Shown piece by piece: positions 10,408 to 39,406 of a stretch of DNA of 64,000 nt. The translations under genes were made by a program, and so were the position numbers. The stretch's first letter is position 1, and every line of letters starts with the position of its first letter. Origin of the DNA: Rubripirellula reticaptiva (GTDB taxonomy: Bacteria; Planctomycetota; Planctomycetia; Pirellulales; Pirellulaceae); assembly GCF_007860175.1 (NCBI RefSeq), contig NZ_SJPX01000003.1, forward strand, positions 879,380 to 943,379, written 5' to 3'. The notes beneath the pieces were generated by a model that had not been told where the DNA came from, did no database searches, and was given only the letters and a program-made list of their open reading frames with translations.

Positions 10408-11868
10408 ATGACTGATCACGACGCTCAATCCGACGGTAGTGTTACCGACGACAGACGTACTGACTTGCCTGTGGTGCCTCGCAAGTTCCTTTATCCCTTC
10501 GTGATTGTGACAACGCTGTTCGCGTTGTGGGGATTCGCCAACGATATCACCAACCCGTTGGTGCGAGCGTTCAAAGAGATCTTTTTAATCAGCAACGCAC
10601 AAAGTAGCCTGGTTCAGTGGGCTTTCTATGGCGGCTATGCAACGATGGCGATCCCGGCGGCTCTGGTGATCCGCAAGGTCTCGTACAAGTCGGGGATCAT
10701 CATCGGTCTGTTGCTTTACGCGATCGGCGCGCTGCTGACGATACCCGCCAGTTTGTTGATGGACTTCAATATTTTTCTGGTTGGGTTTTACGTGCTGACC
10801 TTTGGTCTCGCGTTCTTGGAAACGACCGCGAACCCGTACATTTTGTCGATGGGACCTCGCGAGACTGCGACGCAGCGGTTGAACCTTGCACAAGCTTTCA
10901 ACCCGATCGGATCGTTGACCGGGATGGTTGTCGCAAGCACGTTCATTTTGCCAGGACTACAAGTCTCCGAGTTTCGTGACGCCCAACAAAAGGCTCACCC
11001 CGAATACGCCACGATGTTGCCCAGTGAAGTTGATGGATTGATCACGCAAACGATGGTGCAGCACGCCGAAGATCAACCCGAAGCGCGGCAAGAAATGGTG
11101 GCTCACGATTTGAGCGTGGTGAAGACGCCGTACGTCGTCATCGCGATGGTCGTGCTTGCGATGTTGGTCGTCTTTGCAGTCTCGAAACTGCCGGACACGG
11201 GTGGCGAAGAAGACGAGATCGCAATCATGACGCTAATGAAGCACTTGATGACCAATTGGCAATACGTTGGCGGTGTCATAGCACAAGCGTTTTACGTGGG
11301 CGCACAAATCATGTGCTGGACGTTCATCATTCACTACGGCATGACGCTGGTGGGACTCAGTGCGGCACAGGCCCAGAACTACAATATTGTTGCGATGGTG
11401 ATCTTCTTGGCCAGTCGGTTTATCTGCACCTTCATCCTGAAATTCCTCTCGCCTGGATTGTTGTTGGGGATTTTGGCGGTGGGTGGCTGCTTGCTGACAA
11501 TCGGAGCGATTTTCGTTCAAGGGTTGCCGGGTTTGTATTGCCTGATTGCTGTTTCAGCGTGCATGTCGTTGATGTTTCCGACGATCTATGGCATCGCGCT
11601 GAGCGGGTTGACGCCGAATGATGCTAAGTTGGGTTCGGCCGGCTTAATCTTTGCGATTGTTGGCGGTGCCTTCATGCCTCGATACCAAGGCGCTTTGATC
11701 GACGGCGAAGGGATGACGATTGCAGGGCAAGCTTTAGAGTCCGTTCGCGTTTCGTTCTTTTTGCCACTGATCTGTTTCGTTGTCATCGCGATCTTCGGTT
11801 TCGCGGTCTACTTGTTCGCTGGCAAACAGGATTCGGGTCATAGCAGTGCCAAGGGAGCAACCGCATGA
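10408..11868 (+). CDS. fucP: L-fucose:H+ symporter-type permease (FucP/FHS family, MFS)
   Basis: 486 residues from the ATG at 10408, which has AGGAA eight bases upstream. Twelve hydrophobic segments are present, with FHS-family motifs: 'LFALWGFANDITNPLV' in helix 1, 'AFYGGYATMAIPAALVIRK', 'VSYKSGIIIGLLLYAIGALL', 'LAFLETTANPYILSMGP' and 'LNLAQAFNPIGS'. The Glu of 'LETTANP' corresponds to the essential E135 of E. coli FucP; the position of its D46 is Asn here, with an Asp three residues earlier. There is an extra loop of about 40 residues before helix 6. The neighbouring fucosidase cluster supports L-fucose or a related sugar as substrate, but other FHS members carry glucose or galactose, so the sugar is inferred. 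Confidence 0.82.
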   Translation: MTDHDAQSDGSVTDDRRTDLPVVPRKFLYPFVIVTTLFALWGFANDITNPLVRAFKEIFLISNAQSSLVQWAFYGGYATMAIPAALVIRKVSYKSGIIIGLLLYAIGALLTIPASLLMDFNIFLVGFYVLTFGLAFLETTANPYILSMGPRETATQRLNLAQAFNPIGSLTGMVVASTFILPGLQVSEFRDAQQKAHPEYATMLPSEVDGLITQTMVQHAEDQPEARQEMVAHDLSVVKTPYVVIAMVVLAMLVVFAVSKLPDTGGEEDEIAIMTLMKHLMTNWQYVGGVIAQAFYVGAQIMCWTFIIHYGMTLVGLSAAQAQNYNIVAMVIFLASRFICTFILKFLSPGLLLGILAVGGCLLTIGAIFVQGLPGLYCLIAVSACMSLMFPTIYGIALSGLTPNDAKLGSAGLIFAIVGGAFMPRYQGALIDGEGMTIAGQALESVRVSFFLPLICFVVIAIFGFAVYLFAGKQDSGHSSAKGATA

Positions 11869-12170
11869 TGCCGGTGGTGGGCACGGCAGATGGCTCACGT
11901 TGAACGTTTCAAGATCCGCATCGCGATGACGAACAATGGTGGGTACTCAACGACTGATTCAGCGTTAATTATCCTGACGGAAAACGCAAACTTTGGAGCT
12001 CGGATGATCGAAAGATTCAAGCCAATCACAGCCGTGGTTAATGCTGATGTGATCGAGGTGATCGTCCGCCCCGAACGAGATGCACGTAGTGCCAAACTAA
12101 GGCCCCCAACCGCCACCGCATTCTCAATCGATAGCGGTGCGGAGGATTTCCGGCGGATGGGGAGCTCGTC
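11869..12170. other. Intergenic region between the permease and VWA genes
   Basis: 302 bases. A 94-codon frame (11890-12174) overlaps the next start by ATGA but reads as non-protein. A 6-bp stem (caccgc / gcggtg, 12114-12139) and the words gatagcggtgc (12130-12140) and atttccggcgg (12146-12156) lie just before the VWA gene. The same two words recur in the gap at 23201-23222. No promoter hexamers were recognised. Confidence 0.4.
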
Positions 12171-13532
12171 ATGACAGTCACGTCATCGCCGGCTAGTTTC
12201 GACGATGAATTGGTTGTTGTTTCGAACGGCAACGAGTTCTTGCGCATCGTGAGTGAAGATTTGCCAGCCGCTACGGCGGGCGGTTTTTATAGGCCACAAG
12301 ACCGCGGTTTGACCATCGTCAGTGACGGCGAGAGCCCGTTTGAGATTCCGGCCGCTCAGTTGGAATGGGCCAAGGCGAACGGTTTCCGCGACGTAATGAG
12401 GACGCCGTTGTCGACCGGCGATTTCCAGGACAAGACTGCCGCCATTGATCTTGAGTATCTGAACGAATTGAGCGTGGGCAACGTCGAATCGCACGACGAG
12501 ATCGCTAGCGAGTTGGAAGGCATCGAAGGTTGGCGGCGCGGTTTGCTGCGTTTGCGGTTCTGGATGGACGCGCGGCGTGCCCAGTTGGGCCGACAACTTG
12601 GTGGCGCCGGGATCAGTGTTCTGGTGCACGTCGCTGTGATTTTGTTGCTGGCGAGTTTTGTGTTCATTGAAGAACAGCCTGAGATGCTGGGATTCGTTGC
12701 GTCAGTTTCATCGACGGATGACGTCATCGACGAAGTCATCGTGGATGTAACACCGCTCGAGATTGCCGAACCAATAGACGTCGCCCAACCGGATCCCCAG
12801 CCCGAGCCGAGCGAGGTGCCAATGGAGCTGATAGACGTGGTTCCGGACTTGGCGGGCGTGATTGTCGGCGAAGCGATCAAACCACCGGCCAAGCCCGTCA
12901 CCAGCCCAACGCAGAAGCCGGTCACGCCGACGGTTTTCGGCAGCCAAATGGCGGCAACGAATTACGTTTTCGTGATCGACAATTCCAACAGCATGACCAA
13001 GGGCCGATTTGAAACGGCGCTCTATGAATTGATGTTGACGATCAACCAACTGACACCCAAACAGCGGTTCTATGTGATCTTCTACAGCGACACGGCCTAT
13101 CCGATGATGCATCCGGATGCGGTGCTGAAGTTGGTTCCTGCGACCGACCGCAACAAGCAGTATCTGTTTCAGTGGTTGCAGACGGTGCCGCTGTGTTTGA
13201 AAACGAATGGGAAGGAAGCGATCGGGGCTGCATTCCGGCTTGAGCCTGACGTGATCTATGTGCTTGGCGACGGCGCGTTCACGGACAAAGCGGCCCAGTT
13301 CTATGCGTCGCGACCGAACCCGCGAGTGATCGTTCACACGCGAGGAATGGAAGTGAAGCCATCGGACGCGGTGGAGTTCAAGAAGCTAGCCAATGCCCAC
13401 CGTGGAACTTACAAGGACGTAGGTGTTTCGCCTCAGGGAGTCCAGATGGCGAAACAGTATCCACGCCCACGAAACAATATCCGCGGACCTGTTTGGGGAC
13501 TCACACTTCCGGTAACGGCCAACAAGAAATGA
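12171..13532 (+). CDS. Membrane-anchored von Willebrand factor A (VWA) domain protein
   Basis: 453 residues from an ATG preceded by GGGAG. The first 140 residues are soluble and probably cytoplasmic. A single hydrophobic helix lies near residues 145-167 ('ISVLVHVAVILLLASFVFI'), then an acidic, proline-rich stalk. From about residue 265 a VWA fold begins: the MIDAS motif DxSxS is intact ('VIDNSNSM'), followed by 'FYVIFYSDTAYPMM', a Thr in 'CLKTNGKEAIGAA' and 'VIYVLGDGAFTD'. VWA domains bind ligands or partner proteins through a metal ion. It is 40 bases from the next gene, so the pair is probably co-transcribed. The partner and process are unknown. Confidence 0.84.
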   Translation: MTVTSSPASFDDELVVVSNGNEFLRIVSEDLPAATAGGFYRPQDRGLTIVSDGESPFEIPAAQLEWAKANGFRDVMRTPLSTGDFQDKTAAIDLEYLNELSVGNVESHDEIASELEGIEGWRRGLLRLRFWMDARRAQLGRQLGGAGISVLVHVAVILLLASFVFIEEQPEMLGFVASVSSTDDVIDEVIVDVTPLEIAEPIDVAQPDPQPEPSEVPMELIDVVPDLAGVIVGEAIKPPAKPVTSPTQKPVTPTVFGSQMAATNYVFVIDNSNSMTKGRFETALYELMLTINQLTPKQRFYVIFYSDTAYPMMHPDAVLKLVPATDRNKQYLFQWLQTVPLCLKTNGKEAIGAAFRLEPDVIYVLGDGAFTDKAAQFYASRPNPRVIVHTRGMEVKPSDAVEFKKLANAHRGTYKDVGVSPQGVQMAKQYPRPRNNIRGPVWGLTLPVTANKK

Positions 13533-13572
13533 TACAAATGCTCGCGTCCCCGCCAGCCCGAGTTGTCCAAGC

Positions 13573-16173
13573 ATGAATCATCGTGGACAGTGTCCCGCAT
13601 GCCACAGGGTTGTTGAAATTGAATCCGAGGATCTGCCAAGTTCGGTCCGCTGTGATTGTGGGACCAAGTTGATCGCGCTGTGTGCCGCCAGCATGGCGGA
13701 ATTGCCGTTTCACTGTGATGCGTGCGGTGTGTCCTTCGTGGTCGAACCCGGCGACGTTGGCGATCTGATCACTTGCGATTGTGGTGCAAAGATCGAAGTT
13801 CTCGACGCTGTGATGCGTGCTCCGATGAAGGCGGTGGAGCGTTCCGATCAATTCGAATGTGGGGCGGCACCTAGGACCGCGAACGATCCGAAGCTTATGG
13901 GCGATAGCGATCCTGTGTCGGCAAAGTCGAACGTTGATGAGGAGGATCTCTTTCGCGAGGCAAAGACGTCTGGACGCCGAACGAATTGGTTGCCGGTCGC
14001 AGGCATGGCTGCGGTGATTGGCTTTTTTCTGTTCTCTGTCGGCGCATTTGTTCTCAGTCGACGAGCAAATGATCTAGATGATCAAAACAACAAATCGAGG
14101 CAACCTGCAGCGACTACGAAATCAACACCGCCATTGGCCGACCAGAAGCTAGACCGACGCTTGTTGGCAAAGCTGCTTGTCGAAGTTCCTGATCCCCAAA
14201 CAGAATCGAGCCGCGGAATTGAATCGTCAAACATCGCGAGTCTGGTGGGGTCGGCGACTGATACAAAGAAACGTGTGTCGAAAGACGAGATCGCAACGCG
14301 GCAACGGCGTTCGCCCTACGGTGGTCCCGTAGCGAAACGCAACGTTCAGCTACCGAAAGCCGGCTTACCGCGCCCGCGTATCGAGGAGGTTCCGGTGGAT
14401 CGTCCCCGTCTAGCTTTGGAAGCTGCCTATCGGGACATGTTTGAAAGCTATGAAGTGTTAGGTGCGTTCGACGAGAAAGAGAAAGCTGACCTGAGTGATG
14501 ACTACCGAAAAACGCTTGGCGAAACGCTCTTTCTTTGCCGTCATGCTTTCCAGATCGCACAGGCGGAAAAGGACCAAACCAAAGTCAATGAACTGACTTA
14601 CCTGCTTGCGTATCTTTCTTACACTGCAGGGCAAGTGATCGAAGCAAGCATCTATGGTGAAATGGCGGCTCGATGGGGATCACCCAGAGACGCAGCGACA
14701 CGTGAGGCTGCGATGATCGCGATCGCCGCTTGCCAGGAAGCCAACGCGTGCCACTGGGGAATTGCCGACAAACTTGGTGAGCTGGATCAACAGAGAATGG
14801 TTGCTGAGATCGTTCAACAGCGCTGGCCCGATAACGATCAGCTCGATGCCATTTGGATGCATCTGGCCCAGTCGTATTTCGCGTTCGGGAAGCCGCGGTT
14901 GGCAGCCGAGACATTTTTAAAAATCAAAAATGGATCGGACCAGTTTGAGTCGGCGCAGTTGGCAGCCGGGAATGCGTATTGGTCCTATTTTATTGATCAA
15001 GCAAGCGCTACAGATCCGGCCCCCAAAGAGATGGTGTCGCTGTTGAAGTTGGCGGAAAAGCATCTTCGCGTTGCGGTCACTTTGATGCAGCAGAAAAAGG
15101 GGGCGTCGCCAACGACGAATCTGGTTTCGGCAAAACTTCTGCTCTCGAAAGCGGCAGAACGTCTTGGCAAGGAAGGCGAAGCATTACGCTGGCTCGAGGC
15201 GGGGCCGATGGCAGTCACCCGAACGATCACGACAGAATCGAAAAAGAGAAGAGGCAAAGTTCAAATCGACAAAAGGACTGCTGACGCGGTGTTCGATACT
15301 TTGTACCGAATCAAAGTTTCTAGCGGAAAATGGAACGAAGCCTACCAGTCGCTCGTCAAACTTGATGCTAAGTCGCATCCCGAAATTGGATCACGATACA
15401 CGGCGATTGCCAAAGGGCTGATCAAAAACGTGGAACAGACCGGCACTGTCTCGGAAGCCCAGGTGGGGCTGCTCAGGAAACTATTCGACGCGGTGGCGAA
15501 GCACGACGCCGAACGATCCGATTCGATGCAAGTTTGGGTCGGGCAATCTTGGGCGACCGTCGGTACGAAAGCGGATTCGGACAAGCTGTCGAATGCTTGT
15601 CTGCAGAACGCCGAACGTGCATTTGAAAACGCAATGAATCAACCGGACTTTCCCGAGTCGTCTCGATTGACGGTAACGTTGCTGCGAGCGGATTTGTTTC
15701 AGCGATCGGGTAACCCCATGGCATCACTGGAAATGATTCGCGAGGTCTTGAAGACTTCACCGAACGCAGTCACGCTGCAAGTGCGTGCCGCAAAACTGCT
15801 GCAAGAAATCGCTTTCGAACAAGACAACGTTGGCGGAATATTGGAAGCCATCAACGGCCCGCCGAAGCTGCCGGCCAATGGCGAATCGTCGCCGATTTGG
15901 GGATGGGTCAAAGTATCCAACGTGTTGCATCAACTCAGCTACTCGGACAATGCGACTGACGAGCATAAGACGTTGTCCCACGAGGCAAATTATCATCTGG
16001 CTCGGTGCCAATGGTTGTTGGCTAAGCTAACTCAGGATTCTTCGCAGCGTGAGAGCCAATTCAGAAAACTAAAGTCTCAGCTTTCTCGCCGGATAACGCT
16101 ATCGGGTACTGATCCGGGCCAAGGCGACGTTTGGCAAGTGGGGCTGGAGTCTCTGCTAGAAAAAATCGAATGA
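13573..16173 (+). CDS. Zinc-ribbon, single-pass membrane protein with helical-repeat region
   Basis: 866 residues. Two short zinc ribbons open the protein, each CxxC followed by CxCG: 'CPAC'...'CDCG' near residues 7-30 and 'CDAC'...'CDCG' near 48-71. A membrane helix follows near residues 137-160 ('AAVIGFFLFSVGAFVL'). The long C-terminal part (about residues 270-866) is alpha-helical with repeated Ala/Leu patterns and phrases like 'WMHLAQSYFAFGKPRLAAETF', typical of TPR-like repeats and suggesting a protein-binding scaffold. It lies 40 bases after the VWA gene in the same direction, so the two proteins probably act together at the membrane. Zinc binding and repeats are seen; the partner and function are unknown. 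Confidence 0.76.
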   Translation: MNHRGQCPACHRVVEIESEDLPSSVRCDCGTKLIALCAASMAELPFHCDACGVSFVVEPGDVGDLITCDCGAKIEVLDAVMRAPMKAVERSDQFECGAAPRTANDPKLMGDSDPVSAKSNVDEEDLFREAKTSGRRTNWLPVAGMAAVIGFFLFSVGAFVLSRRANDLDDQNNKSRQPAATTKSTPPLADQKLDRRLLAKLLVEVPDPQTESSRGIESSNIASLVGSATDTKKRVSKDEIATRQRRSPYGGPVAKRNVQLPKAGLPRPRIEEVPVDRPRLALEAAYRDMFESYEVLGAFDEKEKADLSDDYRKTLGETLFLCRHAFQIAQAEKDQTKVNELTYLLAYLSYTAGQVIEASIYGEMAARWGSPRDAATREAAMIAIAACQEANACHWGIADKLGELDQQRMVAEIVQQRWPDNDQLDAIWMHLAQSYFAFGKPRLAAETFLKIKNGSDQFESAQLAAGNAYWSYFIDQASATDPAPKEMVSLLKLAEKHLRVAVTLMQQKKGASPTTNLVSAKLLLSKAAERLGKEGEALRWLEAGPMAVTRTITTESKKRRGKVQIDKRTADAVFDTLYRIKVSSGKWNEAYQSLVKLDAKSHPEIGSRYTAIAKGLIKNVEQTGTVSEAQVGLLRKLFDAVAKHDAERSDSMQVWVGQSWATVGTKADSDKLSNACLQNAERAFENAMNQPDFPESSRLTVTLLRADLFQRSGNPMASLEMIREVLKTSPNAVTLQVRAAKLLQEIAFEQDNVGGILEAINGPPKLPANGESSPIWGWVKVSNVLHQLSYSDNATDEHKTLSHEANYHLARCQWLLAKLTQDSSQRESQFRKLKSQLSRRITLSGTDPGQGDVWQVGLESLLEKIE

Positions 16174-16274
16174 GTCCGAACGCCTTGCGTCTTCGAAATC
16201 AAAACGTCAACGAATTGGCGACGATCGTTGATCTAACAAACATCTTCCCGAATCACGACCAAAAACGCTGAGTT

Positions 16275-18233
16275 ATGCCCAATCCTTCTGACAAGTCACT
16301 AACCGTTCTCCGACCGCTCGCCGAGCGGTTTCCGAATGTCGATTCTGCGATGGCCGAAATCGCTAGGCTCGCGGCCATCCGGACTCTGCCCAAGGGCGCC
16401 ATCCATGTGATCAGCGATATTCACGGCGAGGATCAGAAACTGCGCCACGTGATCAACAACGCTTCGGGATCATTACGGCCTCTGGTCGAGAAAATGTTCG
16501 GCGACCACATGGACGCCGACGAGTTTCGCGATTTTCTTACACTGATTTTTTATCCTCCGGAGGTCATCAAAGTCCTGCGGCAGAAGCCGTTCACCGACGA
16601 GGAATTACGATCGTATGCGACGACGACGCTTCGAAATCTCTTCGAACTTGTTCGCGTACTCGCAGCCGGGTACAGCCTAAAGCGAGCTATCGGAATTTTT
16701 CCGGTGGAGTATCGCGAGTTGTTCTCCGAAATGTTGCATGAACCGACCACGTCGCGTCGTCAGGAATTCATTTCGGCGATCGTCAATGAACTTGCCAACC
16801 GCGACCGTGTTTGGAACCTGATCCACGTTACCGGGCGGTTGGTCCGTAACCTTGCCATCTACGAATTGATTATCGGCGGCGACTGTTGGGATCGCGGTCC
16901 ACGTGGTGATCGCGTCGTGGATTATCTGCGTCAACAGCCAAATGTTTCGTTTGTCTGGGGCAACCACGATGTCGCGTGGCTTGGAGCCCATCTTGGGCAT
17001 CCGGCACTGATCTGCAACGTGTTGCGAGTGTCGCTGCGTTACCGCCGGATCACGCAGATCGACGAAGGCTATAGCATTCCGCTGACTTCACTCGAGCATC
17101 TCGCGCAAAACGTTTACGGTGACGACCCCGCCGTGCACTTCATGCCAAAGAGCACCGGACTGCGTTCGATGGAGATGGTCGCACGGATGCAAAAGGCCGC
17201 GGCCGTGATGCAGTTTAAGCTCGAAGGCCAAATGTTGCAGCGTCGCCCCGAATGGGAACTGGATCACCGGCGTCTGTTGCACTTGATCGACTATGACAAC
17301 GGATCGATCGATTTGGGCGGCACACAATATCCGCTGCGTGACACATATTTCCCTACCATCGATCCGAAAAATCCGTACCAGCTTTCCGCCGAAGAAGAAC
17401 TTTGTCTAAAAGGCCTCCGGCACTCCTTTGTCAGCAGCCAAAAGCTAGGCGAGCAGATGCGGTGGCTTGTCAGCCATGGGGCGATGTATTTGATTCGTGA
17501 CAATCACTTGATTTTTCACGCCTGTTTGCCGGTCGACGAAGACGGCGAATTTCTGTCCATGCAGATCGGTGGCGAATCAGTCAAGGGACGCGACATGCTG
17601 GTAGCCCTTGAAAAGCTGCTCGTCCGAGTCATGGATCGTCCCGAAGAAGCCGACTTGGACATTCTTTGGTATCTGTGGAGCGGTCCTTGTTCGCCGCTGT
17701 TTGGTAAGGACCGCATTGCGACATTCGAACGTGACTTCATTGCCGACAAGGCGTCACATCATGAGACGAAGAACCCCTACTTTGCCTTGATTCACGAAGA
17801 ATGGTTCTGTGACAAGGTGCTCGCCGAATTCGACGTCGATACGAAAATGGGGATCATCGTCAATGGGCACGTGCCAGTCAAAGTCGACGAAGGCGAAAGC
17901 CCGCTGAAGAAGAGTGGCAAAGCGGTCACGATCGATGGAGCTTTTTCAGAAGCCTACGGTGACCGAGGTTACACGATGGTGATGGAAGCTGAGCGTACAT
18001 TCCTGGCTCTACATCACCAGTTCGAATCGGTCGAAGCTGCTGTTCGCGACGGCGTCGACATCATTCCTAGCTTGACCGACATTCGGATTTGGGACACGCC
18101 GCGGCGAAACGCCGACACCGAACTGGGAACGCATTTCAGTTTCCAGATTGATTTGCTGGAACAATTGATCGAGGCCTACCGCAACAACGAAATCGCTCAG
18201 GCCGCGTTATCGTCCGGCGCACGTTTGGTGTGA
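16275..18233 (+). CDS. fbp: Fructose-1,6-bisphosphatase, class III
   Basis: Hydrolyses fructose 1,6-bisphosphate to fructose 6-phosphate, the committed step of gluconeogenesis. Its 652 residues match the usual length of the class III (Firmicutes-type) enzyme, which has a metallophosphoesterase core: 'HVISDIHGED' (first metal motif), 'IGGDCWDRGPRGDRV' (GDxxDRG), 'VWGNHDVAWLGA' (GNHD) and late 'INGHVPVK'. Flanking phrases such as 'LTLIFYPPEVIKVL' and 'LWYLWSGPCSPLFGKDRIATFERDF' are also family-typical. It is cytoplasmic. The stop lies 62 bases before the ATG of the next glycosidase gene, all on one strand. A gluconeogenic enzyme at the head of a fucosidase cluster fits growth on L-fucose, whose catabolism yields triose phosphate; that link is inference. 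Confidence 0.94.
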   Translation: MPNPSDKSLTVLRPLAERFPNVDSAMAEIARLAAIRTLPKGAIHVISDIHGEDQKLRHVINNASGSLRPLVEKMFGDHMDADEFRDFLTLIFYPPEVIKVLRQKPFTDEELRSYATTTLRNLFELVRVLAAGYSLKRAIGIFPVEYRELFSEMLHEPTTSRRQEFISAIVNELANRDRVWNLIHVTGRLVRNLAIYELIIGGDCWDRGPRGDRVVDYLRQQPNVSFVWGNHDVAWLGAHLGHPALICNVLRVSLRYRRITQIDEGYSIPLTSLEHLAQNVYGDDPAVHFMPKSTGLRSMEMVARMQKAAAVMQFKLEGQMLQRRPEWELDHRRLLHLIDYDNGSIDLGGTQYPLRDTYFPTIDPKNPYQLSAEEELCLKGLRHSFVSSQKLGEQMRWLVSHGAMYLIRDNHLIFHACLPVDEDGEFLSMQIGGESVKGRDMLVALEKLLVRVMDRPEEADLDILWYLWSGPCSPLFGKDRIATFERDFIADKASHHETKNPYFALIHEEWFCDKVLAEFDVDTKMGIIVNGHVPVKVDEGESPLKKSGKAVTIDGAFSEAYGDRGYTMVMEAERTFLALHHQFESVEAAVRDGVDIIPSLTDIRIWDTPRRNADTELGTHFSFQIDLLEQLIEAYRNNEIAQAALSSGARLV

Positions 18234-18295
18234 TCCAAAGCAAGCACTTTAGCTCGCAAAGTCAAATGGATTCCTTAACTAAGAAACTAAACTTC

Positions 18296-19297
18296 ATGAA
18301 ACGTACATCCATCGAACTATCATTTGCCGCTGCTCTGTTTGCAGTGACTTCCCTGGCCGCGGTTGCGGAAGATAGGCCCATCGGTACGGTAACAATTTCG
18401 TATAGCGATCTGTCGGGCATTGGTGCCGAAGAAGGCGTGATGCGGCGTGACCCAAGCGACATCGTCAAGGTCGACGGTATCTATTACGTCTGGTACTCGA
18501 AAGGCAAGATCTCGCCGGGTTACGATGCAACCATTTGGTGCGCGACATCGTCAGATGGCCACAAGTGGACCGAAAAAGGAATGGCACTCGCCAAAGGCGA
18601 AGCCGGAACGTGGGAAGGCGCGAGCGTGTTCACGCCGAACATTCTGGTTGCCGAGGATCGTTACTGGTTGTTCTATACCGGGACGTCGAGAACGTTTGGC
18701 AAAGGATTCAATCCAGATTCAAAAATCGGAATCGCGGTATCGGATTCACCTGATGGACCTTGGGAACGTCTTGCGACCAATCCGGCTTTACGGAATAGCG
18801 ACAACGCAGACGACTTTGACAGCCACTTGATCGACGATGCCTGCCTGTTGGTTCGTGATGGAAGATACTGGTTCTATTATAAGGGCCGCCAGTTGGGAAA
18901 AAGTCCCGCTCAAACTCAGATGGGCGTCGCCATCGCGGACAAGCCCGAAGGGCCATACGTGAAGTATGAAAACAACCCCGTCATTCCAGGCAACCATGAA
19001 GTGATGGTTTGGCCACAGGACTCAGGAGTGGCCGCGATGATTGGCACCACTGGCCCGAAACCGATTACGCGTTCGATCCTTTACTCGGACGACGGTTTCC
19101 ATTTCTCGAAGACTCACAACATCATCGCGGTTCCGACAGCAGCCGGCGCCTATCGCCCGGAAGCTTTCACACAGAGCGGCAAAGGAAAGCATATCGAGTG
19201 GGGTGTGCATATCGGCAAGCAAAAAGGATTCCTGCCGTTCGTCGAGCGTTTTGACGTTAAAGTTGAAGAGTCATTGTCGGACTCGCCTGATCGATGA
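18296..19297 (+). CDS. Exported GH117/GH43-like five-bladed beta-propeller glycosidase
   Basis: 333 residues from the ATG at 18296; the frame is open back to a GTG at 18230 that overlaps the fbp stop, but the signal peptide 'LSFAAALFAVTSLAAVAE' begins at the chosen start. The propeller domain opens with 'GVMRRDPSDIVKVDGIYYVWYSKG', followed by 'IWCATSSDGHKWTEKG', 'GASVFTPNILVAEDRYWLFYTG', 'DDACLLVRDGRYWFYYKG' and 'GNHEVMVWPQDSGVAAMI'. This resembles GH117 (neoagarobiose hydrolase and relatives) more than classical GH43, with the early Asp in 'RRDPSD' as a likely catalytic residue. The exact substrate is unknown; an alpha-1,3-linked anhydrogalactose, galactose or fucose-type residue is possible. 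It is the first enzyme gene of the cluster after fbp. Confidence 0.72.
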   Translation: MKRTSIELSFAAALFAVTSLAAVAEDRPIGTVTISYSDLSGIGAEEGVMRRDPSDIVKVDGIYYVWYSKGKISPGYDATIWCATSSDGHKWTEKGMALAKGEAGTWEGASVFTPNILVAEDRYWLFYTGTSRTFGKGFNPDSKIGIAVSDSPDGPWERLATNPALRNSDNADDFDSHLIDDACLLVRDGRYWFYYKGRQLGKSPAQTQMGVAIADKPEGPYVKYENNPVIPGNHEVMVWPQDSGVAAMIGTTGPKPITRSILYSDDGFHFSKTHNIIAVPTAAGAYRPEAFTQSGKGKHIEWGVHIGKQKGFLPFVERFDVKVEESLSDSPDR

Positions 19298-19370
19298 GCC
19301 AACTGCCCTGTTTTTGCTTATCTGCACTTAAATCTATCCCGACCCATTTCTCCGCATCGAGAACCACGTC

Positions 19371-20645: not shown

Positions 20646-20717
20646 GCGAGTAACGATCCTGACGCAGTCGGATCGGCAAAGCCGTTATCTAGATTCGGTA
20701 CAAGTACGAACGCAAAC

Positions 20718-23120: not shown

Positions 23121-23319
23121 GCAGTGCTGAAAAAGAGTGACTTTGAAGAAGTGGCTTGTTCGTTTTCAGTCGCTGTTAACTCCAGCGTTGGATGCCACAA
23201 ATTTCCGGCGGGATAGCGGTGCAGACAATGCGTAACTGAGAGGGCTCCGTTTTTGTCGCCCTTGAAATGGATGCGTTAGTAGACGCACCCACATTTGAAA
23301 TTTTTTGAACAGCGAGACG
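23121..23319. other. Intergenic gap between GH95-1 and the GH172-like gene
   Basis: 199 bases without a gene. It contains the words atttccggcgg (23201-23211) and gatagcggtgc (23212-23222), both also found before the VWA gene. No terminator hairpin or promoter hexamer is clear. The gap is the largest inside the glycosidase cluster, so a new transcript could start here. Confidence 0.35.
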
Positions 23320-25476
23320 ATGAATATGATCTTTAAAACAGCCTGTTTTTTTTCTGCCGTGATGGCATTGTCTGTTCTTGCGGGGCAATCGCAAGAGCCT
23401 GTTTCGGTCGATTCGCTGCTGAACGAAATGGTCGATCGGGATGCAGTGGCACGTTATCCGGAAAAGGATTTTCGCCTGAAGCAGCATAGCAGCTACAACC
23501 GGGCATCAAAGACGCCCGATGAACCCGCGGGCTGGTTCAACAACAAGGACAACAACACGCGGGACAAGGACAAGTGCTTTGTTCGTATCGAAGAAAACAA
23601 CGGACGAAAGGAATGGGTCTTGATGGATCACGAGGGGCCGGGCGCAATTGTGCGCACTTGGGTGCCTTGGCGTGGTCACTCGGACGCAAGCACTGATGTC
23701 AAGATGCGGATCTATCTCGATGGTGATGACGAGCCCGTGCTGGAAGGAAACATGCTGAGCATGTTTGATGGCAGCGGATTGTTTCCGTATCCCTTCGCGC
23801 ATCCGTCCCTTCGCTCGGCGGTGAATTTTTTTCCAATTCCCTATGCAAAGGGCTGCAAGGTGACCACGGATCAAATGCCATTCTTTTTTCAGATCACTTA
23901 TCGCGAATACGACGAAAGTACTCCGATCAAGACCTTCACGATGGAGGAATTTGAGTCGGCGAAAGAGTTGACTGAAAAGACGGGCAAGCTGCTCTTGAAT
24001 CCGGGTAGCGGAACGGGGCAAGAGATTCCTGAATCTGCTGGGCCGAAAGTCTTAGTGACTTCCGCTACGATCGATGCTGGAGGTGAGCAGTCGCTGGATC
24101 TTCCTGCAGGTACGGCCGCGGTGCGGGAAGTGTCGGTAAAACTGGGCAGCTATCAGGATCCAAATGTCACTCGCCAGGTGGTGCTGAAGATCGAGTTCGA
24201 CGGCAAGGAAACGGTTTGGTGTCCGATTGGAGATTTCTTCGGTTCGGGTATCGGTTTGAATCCGGTGCAAGGTTGGTCTAGCACCGTTGCCGAAGACGGG
24301 GCCATGACGTGTCGCTGGGTAATGCCTTATCAGAACAGCGGCAAGGTCTCGCTGCTAAACCTCAGTGCCGCGCCGGTGGACGCCGAATTGGTCGTCCAGA
24401 CCGGCAACTGGAACTGGGATGATCGCTCGATGTATTTCCACGCTGGATGGCACGGCCAGTACCCGGTGCCGACTCGTCCGTATTCGGATTGGAATTACGT
24501 CACCCTGAAAGGTCGTGGTGTGTACGTCGCCGATACACTGACAATCATGAACCCGGTCGAAAGATGGTGGGGCGAGGGTGATGAGAAGATCTGGGTCGAT
24601 GGAGATGACTTTCCATCAATATTTGGAACGGGAACCGAGGATTACTACGCCTATTCATGGGGCGGTGTCAGCACTGACTTCTATGAGCACCCATTTCATG
24701 CCCAACCGCGTGCTCACGAATACAACAAATTGAACCGCAAGCCTGCGGCGGAGGCGTTGGTTCGCAACACGCATGGTTACAGCGTCGAGAGCCGTAGTCG
24801 TGCGTTGGATACGATGCCCTTCGGCAGTTCGCTGCAGTTGGATATGGAGGTGTGGTCCTGGACGGACTGCGAGATGGGATATGGCGTCGGCATGTCTTGG
24901 TATGGATTTGCGGACACCGATTCCAACCGCAAACCAGAACCGGTCGAGGTGCGCAACGTTCCGCCAGTGCCGGATCTCAACATCGCTCCCGCGGTCTCCT
25001 CTGCTCATTCGTTCAAAGACTCCGTCGAGATTGTTCCCGAACAAGTTCTGTCGAAGACGGCCGGGACCGCGCTGAAGATGCAGGACTTGAAAAGGATGAA
25101 GTTCAAGGGCAAGTGGAATCTTGGCACACATCAGTTATTCAAAGGCGCTCACGTCGGTGACGCCATTGAAATTCGTATCCCGGCTGCCAGTGATGGTGCG
25201 GAAAGGTTGGCTTTGTATGCCACGAAATCGAATGACTTTGGTGTTCTGCGTTTTTCGGTGAACGGAAAAACTGCTGGCGTGGAAGTCGATCTCTATGCCG
25301 CCAAGCCTGTCCCGACCGGCGCGATCGAACTGGGCGAGTTCGAGCCGGTCGAAAGTGCTTATGTGTTGCGAGTTGAGGTGGTCGGCAAGAATTCCAACAG
25401 CAAGGGCACATTCTTTGGCCTCGATTGCGTCACCCTGTCTTTGCCAACGAGTGAAAGCACGGACGTCAATCAATGA
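23320..25476 (+). CDS. Exported DUF2961/GH172-like protein
   Basis: 718 residues from the ATG at 23320; a TTG at 23305 is also in frame. The signal peptide is '[15 protein letters not shown]'. The DUF2961 domain, now glycoside hydrolase family 172 (its founding activity is on difructose anhydride I), is shown by '[14 protein letters not shown]', '[15 protein letters not shown]', '[12 protein letters not shown]', '[14 protein letters not shown]', '[15 protein letters not shown]' (the first residue is Cys-Arg in this copy), '[20 protein letters not shown]' and '[11 protein letters not shown]'-like '[15 protein letters not shown]'. The Glu-Asp pair in 'GTGTEDYY' is the invariant signature. A C-terminal beta domain of about 150 residues may bind carbohydrate. 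The substrate is unknown; in a fucose locus it may trim a furanose or other side residue. Confidence 0.85.
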
Positions 25477-25543
25477 AAGAGAACTGCATCAAAGTGACTC
25501 GTGGGAACGCGCCTCAATCGAAGCAACAAGAGAGTCATCAGTC

Positions 25544-27976
25544 ATGAGCATTGGGAAATTTGTAGCTACGCTTGGTATCTTGCTGGCGTTTGTAACGTTG
25601 GCCGTGGCCGATGAACGCTACGTGCTGCGGTACGACGCGCCGGCCAACGACAATTTTGAAAAGTCGTCGAAAGGAAAACCCAAGGGGCTCGGCTTCATCC
25701 AGACGGCGCTGCCGCTGGGCAACGGTCGGTTGGGGGCCATGTTTTCCGGCGGTATCGATACCGAGCATCTGCTAATCAATGACATCACGTTGTGGATGAA
25801 CGCCAAGCGTGGACAGGATGCGGTTGCGCAGTCCGGCACTCGTGTCGTTGCACCGGCGGACTTTGAGACGGTTCGGAAAACCTACCGAGAAGGAAAATTC
25901 GGTACCAAGCCAGGCAGCATGGAAAGCGTGTCGACGAAGTATCTCAGCAGCACCGAGCCGCTGGGGAACTATGCACCGTTTTCCGATCTGTTGATCTCCA
26001 CCGGACACGATCGGGCATCGATCCGCGACTACCATCGCTCGCTCGATTCACGTACTGGCCTGGGAACCGTCAGCTATTCGGTAGGCAACGGGACATTCAC
26101 CAGAGAGTTCTTCTGCAGCTATCCTCACGATGTGGTGGTGGCCCGCTTTACGGCCGACGATGCAACGTTGAACTTGACGATCCAGACCACCACTAAGCAT
26201 CAGGTGGCACATGTGAAGGCTGCGGGCAACCGGATCACTCTTAGCGGTAAAGCGAAGATGGTTCAGGACGATGTCGAGTTCATGCAAATCGTTCAGGTCG
26301 ATGCCGGGGACGCCGAAATTTCGCCGCAAGCTGATGGCTCGATCAAGATCTCCGGCGCTAGCGATGTGAAGATCTACTTGGCGGGCTATTGCGACTATCT
26401 GCCGGTCTATCCGTCATTCAAAGGACGTGACTACCAAGTGGATTGCGAAAAGGCAATCTCGGCGGCGGCCGAGATTGGGTTTGGTGCTCTTAAGCAGTCG
26501 CATGTCGCCGATGTTTCTTCGCACATGAATCGCTGTCGTTTGAAGCTGGATTTTGAACCGTCCAGATTGACCACCGATAAACTCGTTTCCAGCGATGGCA
26601 GTTTGGAACTTGAAAATCTGTACTTCAACTACAGTCGTTACTTGCAGTTGAGTTGCTCACGCGGCGCACCGGTTCCTTCGAATCTGCAGGGAATTTGGAA
26701 TGCAGACCTCAAGCCGGCGTGGAATTGCGACTACCACACCGACATCAATGTGCAGATGAATTTCTGGATGGTTGATCCCGCGAATCTGTCGGAGTCGTTT
26801 GGTCCGTTTGCTAAGTGGACGAAGATCGTCGCGGAATCAGGCGCGCACACTGCCCGAGAAACCTTTGGCGTCGATAAAGGCTGGAGCATGGGGCTGAACG
26901 GCAATGTCTTTGGCTTCACCGCACAGAATGTTCACGGCCGGCGCAATCAGCAGGCCGGGCACTGGCTTTGCCAGAACTTGTTCGATCACTATGCCTTCAA
27001 TAAAGATCGTGCCTACCTCGAAGAAATTTATCCGATCCTGAAAGGCGCCGCGGAGTTTTTTGTCGAGTATCTCGCACCTTGGAAGGACGGCACCCTGGTT
27101 GTCTATCCCACCTGGTCGCCCGAAAACACTTACCTGACCAAACAGCACGGCAAATTGAACAAGCAGGCTTACGGCGCGTCATGGGATCAGCAACTCGTAC
27201 TGAATCTATTCACCGACTGCATCGAAGCGTCCACAGTTCTTGGATGTGACGAGTCGTTCCGCAGAACGCTGCAAGGCATGATTCCGAAGCTTTGCCCTCA
27301 AAAGATTGGTCAGTACGGTCAATTGCAGGAGTGGCCAGAGGACTGGGACAACCCAAAGGATACGCACCGCCATATCTCTCATTTGATCGCGCTGCATCCC
27401 GGTCGGGATATTTCGCCACTGACAACAAAAGAGTTGTATCAGGCGGCTCTGGTTACGATGAAGCATCGGGGCGACGAGTCGACCGGCTGGAGCACCGGTT
27501 GGAAGACTTGTTTCTGGTCGCGTCTGCACGATGGCGACAGGGCGCACAATATCTATCGATTCCTGACTTCCCAACGAGCTTACCCCAACCTGTTTGATTT
27601 TCATCCGCCGTTCCAAATCGACGGTAACTTTGGTGGCGCGGCAGGCGTGTGCGAAATGTTGTTGCAGAGCCATCTGCGCAGCGTGAATGTAGATGCGAAG
27701 ACAATCGAAGGAGCGGCGTTTGTCGCGTATCAAATAGATCCGAAGGAGCCGACGCATTTTGTTCCGGTTGTTCCGGACGAATCACTTGCCGACGCACCGT
27801 ATATCCTGCACCTGCTGCCCGCGTTACCGTCGGTCTGGCCTAGTGGGAAGATCAATGGGCTGAAAGCGGGGGCGGTTTTGAAGTCGACATCCAGTGGGAA
27901 AACGCGGCGCTGGTTCGGGCTACCATTCGGGCGTCACGAAACGGTGAATTTCGTATTTATGCTGGCGGTGAACTGA
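25544..27976 (+). CDS. GH95 glycosidase (paralogue 2), C-terminus frameshifted
   Basis: 810 residues from the ATG at 25544, with a signal peptide '[15 protein letters not shown]'. The GH95 core is clear: '[15 protein letters not shown]', '[12 protein letters not shown]', '[12 protein letters not shown]', '[14 protein letters not shown]'. His398 and Asn402 match AfcA H419 and N423, but Asp400 replaces the usual N421; Glu596 and Asp693 are kept. After '[18 protein letters not shown]' the frame changes at a run of five G (27868-27872). The reading here ends at 27976, while the family tail ('[20 protein letters not shown]', then '[14 protein letters not shown]') continues in another frame to a TAG at 28030-28032. 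This is either a one-base deletion (real or sequencing) or a slippage site. It also has an inserted loop before the C-terminal domain ('[13 protein letters not shown]'). Confidence 0.88.
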
Positions 27977-28077
27977 GCGAAGTGGTTTCGCTTGAAAGTG
28001 GTGAGTCTATGGTCTGGCCGCTCGTTCAATAGCACACGAATCAATTTATCAAACGCTCGATGGAGCGGAGTCACTCA

Positions 28078-30468
28078 ATGTTTCGATCCAACTTGTTCTT
28101 CCTGGTTTCTTGTCTTCTCACCTTGCCGCTTCAAGCAGATACCAAGAGTGATTCGAGCTACACAAATGAAATCTGGTTCCGGCAGCCGGCAACTGAGTGG
28201 ACCGAAGCGTTGCCGATCGGCAACGGGCGTCTTGGGGCCATGGTTTTTGGCGGTATCGACCAGGAACGGTTGCAGCTCAATGAAGACACGCTCTGGTCCG
28301 GCGGCCCCCAATGTTACGACAATCCGGATGCTTACCAGCATCTCGCGACCGTTCGTGATCTGCTTCAGCGAGACGAGTATGCCGAAGCCGAAGCGATCGC
28401 ACAGCAGATGTTGGGGCGTCCGAAATACCAAGCAGCCTATCAGCCGTTGGGGGATCTGTTTCTGGATTTTGATCACGGTGATTCAAATGATCAATCACCG
28501 AGTGACTATCGGCGTGAATTGAATCTTGACAACGCCATCAGCACTGTAAGCTATCAAGTCGGTGCAGCACGTTTCACTCGAACCGTGTTTGCATCGCATC
28601 CAGACGAAGCGATTGTGATGCATCTGGATTGCGACCAGCCAGGGAGAATCGCGTTTGATTTGTTCATGGACAGTTCCCATGTGTTTCAGTCGGAAACACC
28701 ATCCAACGACACGCTTTTGTTGACAGGCCAAGTCGCGCCGCGGGGTGAAAGCAAACTGAGCGGGTCCAGAAGTTTGATCGCGCCGTGGGACGGTCCTGGT
28801 TTGAAATTCGCTGCCCTAGTGAAAGTGAAGGCCGACGGCGGAACGGTTGTATCGCGCGGCGGAAAAATAACGGTTCGCGATGCGGACACAGTCACGATCT
28901 GTTACTCAGCCGCGACGAGTTACGTCAATTTCCAAGACACCAGTTGCGATCCGCAGGAAAAGGTTGACGGCTATCTTTCAGGCGTCGAAGGGAAAACGTT
29001 CGACCAACTGCATCAGCGACATGTTGACGACTATTCATCGTTGTTCGGGCGAGTTTCAATCGACCTTGATGTGGACGAAGCCAATTTGCTGCCGACCGAT
29101 GAGCTGGTTCGTCGCTCGACCGACGACAATGATGCCGTGCGTCATTTGACTGAATTGGTATTTCAGTACGGTCGCTATCTGATGATCGCCGGTTCGCGTC
29201 CGGGGACTCAACCTTTGAATCTGCAGGGAATCTGGAACAACGAACTCGATCCGCCTTGGGCGAGCAAGTACACGATCAACATCAATACCGAAATGAACTA
29301 CTGGGTCGCGGAAGTTGGCAACCTGAGCGAATGTCACGAACCGCTACTTCGCATGGTTGCCGAGTTGCAAACACCGGGGCGGGCAACGGCTCAAACGCAC
29401 TATCGCGCCGGTGGTTGGATAGTGCATCACAATACCGACCTTTGGCGTGGCACGGCTCCGGTGGACGGTGCTCAGTGGGGAATGTGGCCGATGGGTGGTG
29501 CGTGGTTGTGCCAACATCTTTGGGAACACTACCGATTTACTGGCGATACCGAACACTTGCAAAAGTCTTACCCGATTCTCAAAGGCGCCGCTGAGTTCTT
29601 CATGGATGCTCTGGTCGAGAACTCGGAAGGTTGCCTGATCACGTCACCATCGCTGTCACCCGAACACAGTCACGGCGGCGGCACGAAAGATGGCCAAAGC
29701 GTTGGTCGTTCTGGGATCTCGCTTTGCGCGGGTCCTACGATCGATCTGCAAATCCTCCGTGATCTGTTCGCCAATTGCATCGCCGCATCTGAAACTCTGG
29801 ATATCGATTCAGAGTTCCGTTCGCAGTTGATTCAGACACGGGCACGTCTCGCACCGATGCAGATTGGGCAACATGGCCAGCTTCAGGAATGGTCGGTCGA
29901 TTGGGACAACCCCGAGGATCAACACAGTCACGTTTCGCACATGTATGGACTGTTTCCGAGCAGCCAGATCAATCCACGCGACACGCCTGAGCTGTTTGAT
30001 GCGGCGCGGACCTCCATGATCCATCGAGGGTACTCGGGCGGTTGGTCCGGTGCTTGGCGAGTCGCGTTGTGGGCGAGACTGGGCGATGGTGAGCGGGCAC
30101 TGACAGCGCTGACTCAGCATGTGATGCCGCGACTGGGCGCAAATTTGTTTAACGGCGGAGAAAAGTTTCAAATCGACGCCAACTTTGGCGCGACGGCCGG
30201 CATCTCGGAAATGCTCCTGCAGAGCCAGCTTGACGAAATTCACCTGCTGCCGGCGCTACCGCAGGCATGGGAAAGCGGGACCGTGAACGGACTGCGGGCA
30301 CGTGGCGGTTTTGAAGTCGACATTGCGTGGAAGAACGGCCAGTTGACCGAAGCAAAAATTCGTTCACTCGGTGGTAAACCGTTGACGGTTCGTTACGGCG
30401 ACCAAACCCGTAGAATGGATCTGTCCAAAGGCCAGACAACCATTTTCAAACCGGTTAGCAATCAATAG
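28078..30468 (+). CDS. GH95 glycosidase (paralogue 3), possible alpha-L-galactosidase
   Basis: 796 residues from the ATG at 28078; one at 28060 is also in frame. The signal peptide is 'LFFLVSCLLTLPLQA'. Domain order is as in other GH95: 'IWFRQPATEWTEALPIGNG', 'RLQLNEDTLWSGGP', 'KYTININTEMNYW', 'QLQEWSVDWDNPEDQHSH', 'FQIDANFGATAG', '[16 protein letters not shown]'. Catalytic Asn401, Asn403, Glu604 and Asp700 are present, but the residue equivalent to AfcA His419 is Thr399. In a characterised Bacteroides ovatus GH95 a Thr at that site goes with alpha-L-galactosidase activity, since it leaves room for the O6 hydroxyl. So L-galactose release is a reasoned prediction; plain fucosidase activity is not excluded. 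The gene lies 45 bases before the GH29 gene. Confidence 0.91.
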   Translation: MFRSNLFFLVSCLLTLPLQADTKSDSSYTNEIWFRQPATEWTEALPIGNGRLGAMVFGGIDQERLQLNEDTLWSGGPQCYDNPDAYQHLATVRDLLQRDEYAEAEAIAQQMLGRPKYQAAYQPLGDLFLDFDHGDSNDQSPSDYRRELNLDNAISTVSYQVGAARFTRTVFASHPDEAIVMHLDCDQPGRIAFDLFMDSSHVFQSETPSNDTLLLTGQVAPRGESKLSGSRSLIAPWDGPGLKFAALVKVKADGGTVVSRGGKITVRDADTVTICYSAATSYVNFQDTSCDPQEKVDGYLSGVEGKTFDQLHQRHVDDYSSLFGRVSIDLDVDEANLLPTDELVRRSTDDNDAVRHLTELVFQYGRYLMIAGSRPGTQPLNLQGIWNNELDPPWASKYTININTEMNYWVAEVGNLSECHEPLLRMVAELQTPGRATAQTHYRAGGWIVHHNTDLWRGTAPVDGAQWGMWPMGGAWLCQHLWEHYRFTGDTEHLQKSYPILKGAAEFFMDALVENSEGCLITSPSLSPEHSHGGGTKDGQSVGRSGISLCAGPTIDLQILRDLFANCIAASETLDIDSEFRSQLIQTRARLAPMQIGQHGQLQEWSVDWDNPEDQHSHVSHMYGLFPSSQINPRDTPELFDAARTSMIHRGYSGGWSGAWRVALWARLGDGERALTALTQHVMPRLGANLFNGGEKFQIDANFGATAGISEMLLQSQLDEIHLLPALPQAWESGTVNGLRARGGFEVDIAWKNGQLTEAKIRSLGGKPLTVRYGDQTRRMDLSKGQTTIFKPVSNQ

Positions 30469-30513
30469 CTAGAAACACAACTTGTCACTCTTACTCATTG
30501 CATCGAGGCAGAA

Positions 30514-31674
30514 ATGAAACGTCGCGAATTCTTAGACAAAGCTGCCCGAGGCACTGGTGCTGCCGCATTGGCCGTCAGTTCGGTGGACCTGTGGGGGCAA
30601 GAATCGGCAGTGCAGTCGTCTGCCGGTGATCCAGGGTTGACGGTGCCCTCGTACTTGACGGACGTCGCGGATCTCTACCAGCAGGATCCTCGCAAAGCAG
30701 CGATCAAGTGGTTTCAAGACGCCAAGTTCGGACTATTCATTCACTATGGGCTTTACTCGTTGCTAGGCCGTGGCGAGTGGGTGCAAATCAAGGAAAAGAT
30801 TCGCGTCGCAGAATACGAAAAATTGGCTAGCCGTTTTACAGCGGAAAAATTCGATGCCGACTTCATCACAGACATGACGCTCGAATCTGGGATGAAGTAC
30901 ATCAACATCACAACGCGTCATCACGATAGCTTTTGTCTGTTCGATTCGAAGTACACGGACTTCAAGAGTACGAACACGCCTGCAAAGCGAGACTTGGTTG
31001 GCGAACTTGCCGAGCAATGCAGTGCCAAGGGGCTGGGTTTCTACTTGTACTATTCCCATGGCCGCGATTGGCGGCATCCGCACGCGCCCAACAATTGGGG
31101 TTGGGGTGGCTCGGCTCGACCAAAATACGATCCTCCGGAGACGTTCTATACAGAAGGCCCCGAACACGATCTGCAGATTTACGTTGAGTTCATGAAAAAT
31201 CAGGTCACCGAATTGTTGACCAACTACGGTCCTATTGGCGGCATTTGGTTGGACGGCATCGGCGTGCCGCTGTCACGTCGTGGCAAGATGGGCCAGTTCC
31301 ATACTCAAGAACTGTACGACCACATCCACTCGCTGCAACCTCAAGTACTGGCATCATACAAACAAGGGCTGTTGGGGACCGAGGACTTTAAGGCACCCGA
31401 GCGGAACTGGAAGGGCGAGTCCAATGTGCCACTGGAACTATGCGATACGTTACAGCCACACGGTTGGGGTTACACGAAATCCGATGACGGCAAGCACAAG
31501 ACGCCCGAGCAAGTGATGGCGATGCTGGACAACGCGAAACAGATGAAGGCGAACTTGCTATTGAACACCGGCCCGATGCCCGACGGTTCGATTCATCCCG
31601 AAGACGTAAAGACATTGAAACAGGTGGGCAAAAACTTGGCGGCCGGCAAAAAGAAAGTCACCGATAAGTCGTAG
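30514..31674 (+). CDS. GH29 alpha-L-fucosidase, Tat-exported
   Basis: Retaining enzymes of this family release terminal alpha-L-fucose from 1,2-, 1,3-, 1,4- or 1,6-linkages. 386 residues, with GAGG upstream of the ATG. The N-terminus 'MKRREFLDKAARGTGAAALAV' is a twin-arginine signal, so the protein is probably exported folded. Family motifs are 'WFQDAKFGLFIHYGLYS', 'GMKYINITTRHHDSFCLFDS', 'GLGFYLYYSHGRDW' and 'GGIWLDGIG', whose Asp247 is the likely nucleophile; the acid/base cannot be fixed by eye. A C-terminal 'NLLLNTGPMPDGSI' completes the barrel. Unlike many GH29 enzymes it has no extra C-terminal beta domain. It closes the cluster; 193 bases follow to the next gene. Confidence 0.93.
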   Translation: MKRREFLDKAARGTGAAALAVSSVDLWGQESAVQSSAGDPGLTVPSYLTDVADLYQQDPRKAAIKWFQDAKFGLFIHYGLYSLLGRGEWVQIKEKIRVAEYEKLASRFTAEKFDADFITDMTLESGMKYINITTRHHDSFCLFDSKYTDFKSTNTPAKRDLVGELAEQCSAKGLGFYLYYSHGRDWRHPHAPNNWGWGGSARPKYDPPETFYTEGPEHDLQIYVEFMKNQVTELLTNYGPIGGIWLDGIGVPLSRRGKMGQFHTQELYDHIHSLQPQVLASYKQGLLGTEDFKAPERNWKGESNVPLELCDTLQPHGWGYTKSDDGKHKTPEQVMAMLDNAKQMKANLLLNTGPMPDGSIHPEDVKTLKQVGKNLAAGKKKVTDKS

Positions 31675-39263: not shown

Positions 39264-39406
39264 TCCATCAACCCAGTCAGACGTTACCGGCTGGTTCTGA
39301 TCGTTGCTTTACCTTGTCTATCGCTGGGACTTGGACATGAAGCGCGCTGACGAGTAAAAACGGCGAAATTGATTAGGACTCACCCATGGTCAATCGTGTT
39401 GGTTGG

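Follow-up and report, generated by a model that had tools for sequence, protein, structure and literature searches.

Fucoidans are hard to degrade and have been discussed as a carbon sink in the sea. Their degradation in Planctomycetota has reportedly been published already, in a Nature Communications paper, and Sichert 2020 and Perez-Cruz 2024 are said, by their titles, to concern large fucoidan enzyme sets in Verrucomicrobiota and Planctomycetota. Fucosidases of glycoside hydrolase (GH) families GH29 and GH95 that act on fucoidan together with S1 sulfatases are known (PMC12786026, PMC6315715, PMC10154630), and families of this kind have been reported from planctomycetes (PMC11131199). In Wenyingzhuangia fucanilytica CZ1127, published descriptions (PMC6315715, PMC12786026) place GH29 and GH95 enzymes with S1 sulfatases, GH107 and GH141 in one Bacteroidota locus. 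Here, we describe a locus of Rubripirellula reticaptiva, on a stretch of 64,000 nucleotides (the window; contig C3, 879380-943379, of a 7.85-Mb genome), which differs from the CZ1127 cluster in that its exo-enzymes stand without sulfatases and are joined by a fructose-1,6-bisphosphatase (FBPase), DUF6786, GH117 and GH172. We propose that the cassette at 16275-31674 and an upstream FucP gene probably supply the exo-glycosidase and uptake functions of a dispersed system for sulfated fucan of the fucoidan type. Since GH29 and GH95 enzymes working with sulfatases on fucoidan are already known, this is not a new kind of system; what is new is that the exo-glycosidase genes stand apart from the sulfatase genes and include a GH117-DUF6786 pair and a GH95 of the Asp type. 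In agreement with an earlier sequence-only reading of the window, no description of the combination as a unit is apparent in the literature on fucoidan, GH117, GH95, GH29 and GH172, as judged from sources short of full text. The genes of the locus, and two that interrupt it, are as follows:

10408..11868, + strand: FucP-type L-fucose:H+ symporter (TIGR00885, 493 bits, cut-off 280)
12171..13532, + strand: VWA-domain protein (PF13519/PF00092), probably outside the system
13573..16173, + strand: zinc-ribbon/TPR-like protein (weak PF09986 match, labelled by eye), probably outside the system
16275..18233, + strand: class III FBPase (PF06874, FBPase_2, 692 bits), presumably cytosolic
18296..19297, + strand: GH117 (PDB 3p2n, 168 bits, E 3e-48); the open reading frame (ORF) can open at 18230
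19371..20645, + strand: DUF6786 (PF20583, 531 bits), predicted galactose-mutarotase-like supersandwich
20718..23120, + strand: GH95A, His/Asn type (PF22124, 583 bits), TTG start
23305..25476, + strand: GH172 (DUF2961; PF11175, 219 bits; PDB 7v1v, 8ic8), TTG start
25544..27976, + strand: GH95B, His/Asp type (PF22124, 481 bits); the ORF opens at 25295
28060..30468, + strand: GH95C, Thr/Asn type (PF22124, 551 bits), best solved relative 7kmq
30514..31674, + strand: GH29 with an RR-type N-terminus (PF01120, 235 bits, cut-off 25; PDB 8z63, 611 bits)

All nine genes named by the sequence-only reading are present on the + strand between 10408 and 31674, as judged by matches to Pfam, NCBIfam and PDB sequences, and its picture of a locus for stepwise exo-trimming of L-fucose-type sugars with FucP nearby is well supported. 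From 16275 to 31674 the genes are nearly gapless, with intergenic gaps of 45-184 bp when the likely starts at 18296 (GH117) and 25544 (GH95B) are used. FucP is parted from the FBPase gene by the VWA and zinc-ribbon/TPR genes, both probably outside the system; since this pair is kept in the same-genus genome G159 amid other neighbours (72% and 67-68% identity), we excluded it from the unit, and FucP thus stands apart from the other genes. As for export, hydropathy and inspection by eye show a hydrophobic N-terminus in GH117, DUF6786, GH172 and the three GH95 enzymes and an RR (Tat-like) one in GH29, while FBPase has neither and is therefore presumably cytosolic. A scan for sigma-70 promoters and terminators gave fewer matches than the shuffle mean.

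The absence of sulfatases from the window is borne out by our searches: a home-made sulfatase profile found no match among six-frame segments longer than 60 amino acids, and no PF00884 match lies inside the window among the matches listed (153 genome-wide). The relatives of GH95B have a different setting. A scan of the genome collection, using the best 80 of 90 relatives, gave 74 distinct loci, 37 of which (L031-L066, L070) have a GH95 at 56% identity or more to GH95B and belong to Planctomycetes, Verrucomicrobiota-type bacteria (Pontiellaceae, Akkermansiaceae), Lentisphaeria and Bacteroidota. Their hosts include Mariniflexile fucanivorans, Formosa algae, Wenyingzhuangia and Flavobacterium algicola, several of which we take to be fucoidan degraders, and the named relatives of GH95B nearest to the window are Rhodopirellula-type planctomycetes. 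In these 37 loci we counted 113 sulfatases in 771 kb, distributed over 33 loci, compared to 4 in 652 kb around the 37 other GH95 loci, just two of which account for them. Nine planctomycete GH95B loci, as a same-phylum yardstick, hold about 0.15 sulfatases per kb (28 in 185 kb). Within flanks of up to 10 kb, GH117 accompanies GH95B in 20 of the 37 loci (leaving out a weak 28% match in L038) and DUF6786 in 7, compared to none of the 37 controls for either. Of the 199 genomes searched in the host's family, which its named members suggest to be Pirellulaceae, 12 encode a full-length GH95B at 55% identity or more, a broken copy in G172 being left out. We annotated 40-60 kb around GH95B in seven of the 11 other GH95B genomes, and all seven carry a sulfatase motif. 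The clade also has a member in a Wenyingzhuangia sp. (L041); among GH95 enzymes at large, FucWf5 of W. fucanilytica acts on fucoidan fragments (PMC10154630).

The gene order itself is conserved to a limited degree. The five-gene set of DUF6786, GH117, GH95A, GH172 and GH95B is kept, with one swap, in one of the seven annotated relatives, Neorhodopirellula pilleata Pla100 (G198, contig C16, L062), and other genomes have the genes spread over several clusters. In N. pilleata the genes, 62-86% identical to those of the window, are transcribed in the order DUF6786, GH117, GH95A (as two ORFs), GH172, GH95B, so that it differs from the window by the swapped GH117 and DUF6786, the split GH95A and the many sulfatase and GH29-domain genes in which the set is embedded. 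The two GH95A ORFs (388 and 293 amino acids; L062/L106) are possibly inactive there. GH95C, FucP and FBPase lack close counterparts in its 60 kb, and the local GH29s are only 25-34% identical to that of the window. On the other hand, 10 of the 32 ORFs in these 60 kb find their best match in the host, at 64-81% identity (threshold 60%), outside the window, in three regions (C2:734-756 kb, C6:730-757 kb and C5:480-484 kb). Of ten host partner proteins scanned at these sites, six are sulfatases, one is a GH29, one a fusion of sulfatase and GH29, one a GHL15 and one resembles GH43 below cut-off. The supposition that desulfation genes lie elsewhere is thus supported, since other host contigs encode sulfatases closely homologous to those of the partners. 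Partners were taken as best BLAST hits in one direction, in a search covering 22 stretches of 20 kb of the host genome plus the window. Neighbouring genes in the relatives' stretches and host loci were called with a simple ATG-only, non-overlapping caller, which missed the window GH172 because its frame runs into the longer one of GH95B; the 86% match of GH172 comes from other comparisons. Fetched stretches of G150, G158 and G141:C16 were left out of the annotation.

Two further relatives group the same parts in other ways. A 70-kb region of G055 (K23_9) holds a homologue of the host GH29 at C2:745403 (82%) together with FBPase, GH95B, GH172, GH117 and DUF6786. In G087, homologues of GH29 (75%), GH95C (69%) and GH95A (74%) are grouped with sulfatases that best match host contig C2 (72-79%), and GH95B lies about 0.95 Mb away. 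Since the partners are grouped differently in N. pilleata, G055 and G087, the window cassette appears to be one sorting of parts. The placement of fucosidases and S1 sulfatases in a single locus was not found in the window; the partner homologues are on other contigs.

The FBPase_2 domain, which we take to mark a class III enzyme, is full-length (residues 12-637 of 652). It occurs in 22 of the 199 family genomes and is enriched with GH95B, being present in 7 of 12 GH95B genomes (in pieces in G106 and G112) vs 15 of the 187 without (Fisher 4e-5), and in 6 of 11 vs 15 of 187 when the host genome is left out (Fisher 2e-4), with kinship ignored in both tests. The closest FBPase relative (87-89%) consists of only two fragments (G112:C3:428152-428962), perhaps a sign of decay after exchange with the window lineage. 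Fucose genes lie near FBPase in three of ten other contexts, namely G055 and G028 (two of the nine listed) plus the same-genus genome G203. In G203, FucP adjoins FBPase (84% over 219 amino acids and 62%), and G028 has FBPase next to FucI and an L-lactate-dehydrogenase-like gene. G055 has FucP, FucI (1023 bits), an aldolase, a kinase, GH29 and FBPase within 16 kb; the kinase is a rhamnulokinase-like FGGY protein (488 bits, below the cut-off of 528), and the same 16 kb hold two genes with sulfatase-bearing best matches and a sub-threshold match to the GH141 insertion domain (21 bits, cut-off 27). The G059 context has a fructokinase-like gene (116 bits, below cut-off).

The host's own FucI (C6:331011-332810) is 89% identical to that of G055. 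After it come genes for a class II aldolase, a GH29, a beta-helix/PDZ protein and two proteins with sulfatase motifs (C6:329-347 kb, L166), and an AraC/XylR-type regulator lies upstream on the opposite strand. Fucose is broken down to triose phosphate and lactaldehyde, and FBPase would therefore serve gluconeogenesis. A second FucP, 60% identical to that of the window, stands at C6:558243-562447 (L201) beside an aldo/keto-reductase-like gene (labelled by eye) and a gene for a distantly GH29-like protein of 528 amino acids, in an order also seen in G159 (L200, C6:353-359 kb); this locus is perhaps an oxidative fucose pathway.

GH95A, GH95B and GH95C exceed the curated cut-offs (583, 481 and 551 bits for PF22124; 258, 157 and 246 bits for PF14498) and are the three strongest of six GH95-domain matches in the host genome, so their clustering is more than chance. 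In an unrooted FastTree tree of 110 rows, gathered by likeness to the window enzymes and with near-duplicates kept, they fall into three separate, well-supported groups and are thus, on this sequence evidence, old and deep paralogues rather than products of a recent triplication. Relatives reach 89% for GH95A in G159, 77% for GH95C in G045 and 56-86% for GH95B in several phyla. The general acid, Glu501 of BACOVA_03438 (4ufc; PMC4491172), is aligned in all three, and Asn423 of AfcA (2eab), the proposed base, is Asn in 110 of 110 rows. At AfcA position 421, Asn is kept in GH95A and GH95C, whereas GH95B has Asp, as do 43 of 43 rows of its clade and 52 of the 110 overall; the solved 8zbv also has Asp there, and GH95B is still a GH95 by sequence. 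An assignment of Asn421 as the base itself was dropped, since PMC12282258 names Asn423 as base, activated by Asp766, and has Asn421 position the acid Glu566, and we therefore state the GH95B change more cautiously. The Asn/Asp switch took at least four changes on the tree, and three Asp421 groups have members in sulfatase-rich, GH95B-bearing loci. A third GH95 group (L110, L030, L107) has Leu/Asp at AfcA 419/421, and two of its three members lie inside the GH95B stretches of G055 and G198.

At the position said to distinguish fucosidases from the L-galactosidase BACOVA_03438 (PMC4491172), GH95A and GH95B carry His, as in fucosidases, and GH95C carries Thr, as in the L-galactosidase. Although this would point to L-galactose for GH95C, we ruled the position out as a substrate test, since a Thr-bearing GH95 is reported to be fucose-specific (PMC8245568). 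The best solved relative of all three enzymes is 7kmq, which by residue numbering matches the xyloglucan fucosidase XacAfc95 of that paper. The window enzymes have family, general acid Glu and base Asn in common with 4ufc, 2eab and 7kmq but are distant from them (245-715 bits), and GH95B alone has Asp for Asn421. A literature search found no paper on PDB 8ZBV or 8Z63.

The solved relatives of GH117 are 3p2n, 3r4y, 4ak5 and 5ta7 (E values 8e-46 to 3e-48), the best being 3,6-anhydro-alpha-L-galactosidases. In 40 aligned rows, chosen by likeness to the window GH117, the presumed active site is kept, with the Asp of RRDPS, a second Asp and the His of HE in 40 of 40 rows and a Glu in 39, while the His that stands beside the second Asp in 3p2n and 3r4y is replaced by Asp in 38 of 40, including the window. 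DUF6786 adjoins GH117 in 15 of 30 loci fetched from the searched genomes, has E373, E375 and R72 invariant in 36 rows, and is predicted to adopt a galactose-mutarotase-like supersandwich fold; its comparison with sequences of solved structures gave one meaningless match only, and no paper naming DUF6786 or PF20583 was found in the literature search. In GH172, Glu424 (WWGEG) and Glu445 (GTGTED), which we take to be catalytic, align with Glu270 and Glu291 of 7v1v, and both motifs occur in five of five matching rows from three genomes including the host; the protein is 86% identical in N. pilleata and 64% in G055. GH29 has relatives at 69-86% in 10 of 17 other genomes searched. A bolder idea, which we regard as rather doubtful, is that GH95B represents a cross-phylum, fucan-dedicated GH95 group with Asp421 giving a carboxylate-assisted variant of the unusual amide-base mechanism, that GH117 and DUF6786, as a conserved pair of enzyme and mutarotase, serve a non-fucopyranose terminal sugar of fucans such as fucofuranose, and that GH172 is a second furanosidase.

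If the locus is expressed jointly as part of a fucoidan system, sulfatases encoded elsewhere would expose terminal sugars, and GH95A, GH95B, GH95C and GH29 would cut terminal alpha-L-fucosyl residues of differing linkage, one GH95 perhaps taking L-galactose. GH117 and GH172 would take off other end sugars, perhaps in furanosyl or anhydro form, while DUF6786 would equilibrate the beta-anomer released by the inverting enzymes. FucP would import L-fucose, which FucI and the class II aldolase (C6:331-334 kb), together with a presumed kinase, would convert to triose phosphate and lactaldehyde; the class III FBPase would then return triose phosphate to hexose phosphate.

Several observations weigh against this proposal. 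No endo-fucanase family (such as GH107, GH168, GH141 or GH174) turned up in the host genome, though none was searched for by name, and no sugar kinase was seen beside FucI at the C6 locus. The host has 7 GH29 matches vs 22-50 in several relatives, unlike a fucoidan specialist, and we know of no fucan activity for GH172. The five-gene order recurs in only one of seven GH95B relatives; in the 40-60 kb fetched around GH95B, GH172 is found in two of seven (G198, G055) and GH117 at 60% identity or more in just three (G198, G055, G013). No fucose gene was seen in seven of the nine listed FBPase contexts, and that of G141 has RhaT-like, aldose-epimerase (GalM), aldehyde-dehydrogenase and sugar-acid-dehydratase-like genes instead. 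As for the sulfatase counts, the fetched loci also supplied the seed sequences of the profile (80 of their 102 proteins with the motif), and the control loci are mainly from gut Clostridia (Firmicutes), which confounds taxonomy with habitat. The host's genome-wide density of about 0.02 sulfatases per kb comes from a different profile and gives a rough comparison with the GH95B loci. Some of these points would fit a loose aggregate of transferred exo-enzymes without a common substrate, in which FBPase and FucP are chance neighbours: the order is poorly kept, FBPase is absent from 5 of 12 GH95B genomes and mostly away from fucose genes, and an unrelated pair separates FucP. We consider such an aggregate unlikely, given the tight one-strand spacing, the over-representation of FBPase in GH95B genomes, the recurrent DUF6786-GH117 adjacency and the second case of FucP beside FBPase in G203.

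The other two alternatives concern the substrate. A non-sulfated fucosylated or L-galactosylated glycan, such as xyloglucan, arabinogalactan or an algal or bacterial exopolysaccharide, was the target first suggested by the sequence-only reading, and the window without a detected sulfatase and the xyloglucan fucosidase (by numbering; PMC8245568) as best solved relative of all three GH95s would agree with it. That suggestion is not supported, and we think it quite improbable: the GH95B clade sits in sulfatase-rich loci, relatives interleave the same genes with sulfatases of which the host keeps close homologues among its 153 matches, and no xyloglucan partner (GH74, GH31, GH35) is present among the 20 window ORFs scanned. 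Red-algal galactans (agar, porphyran), with GH117 freeing 3,6-anhydro-L-galactose and the GH95s acting on L-galactose, are the least probable target, in our view very unlikely. The match of GH117 to anhydro-L-galactosidases points that way, but its group has Asp in place of the His of 3p2n and 3r4y, it accompanies GH95B in hosts several of which are fucoidan degraders, and no agarase was seen among the same 20 ORFs. The Thr that GH95C shares with 4ufc (PMC4491172) points to galactans as well but is reportedly not diagnostic (PMC8245568).

Downstream of the locus, the window contains on the + strand (40114-63648) a frame of 7844 amino acids with RTX calcium-binding repeats, PKD, leucine-rich repeats and a dockerin I domain, as well as a weak planctomycete extracellular signal below cut-off, and thus probably encodes a giant surface or secreted protein. 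On the - strand, at 35247-40024, a Ser/Thr kinase with weak WD40-like matches adjoins a sigma-70 region 2 protein.

The proposal of a dispersed fucoidan system yields points that can be tested: the role of GH117 in fucan loci, DUF6786 as a mutarotase for fucose or L-galactose, a changed mechanism or specificity in GH95 enzymes with Asp at AfcA position 421, and a contribution of the class III FBPase to growth on 6-deoxy sugars. Altogether, our findings suggest that a planctomycete that has few fucosidases may distribute a single degradation system among several loci, in which case a window alone would mislead on its substrate.

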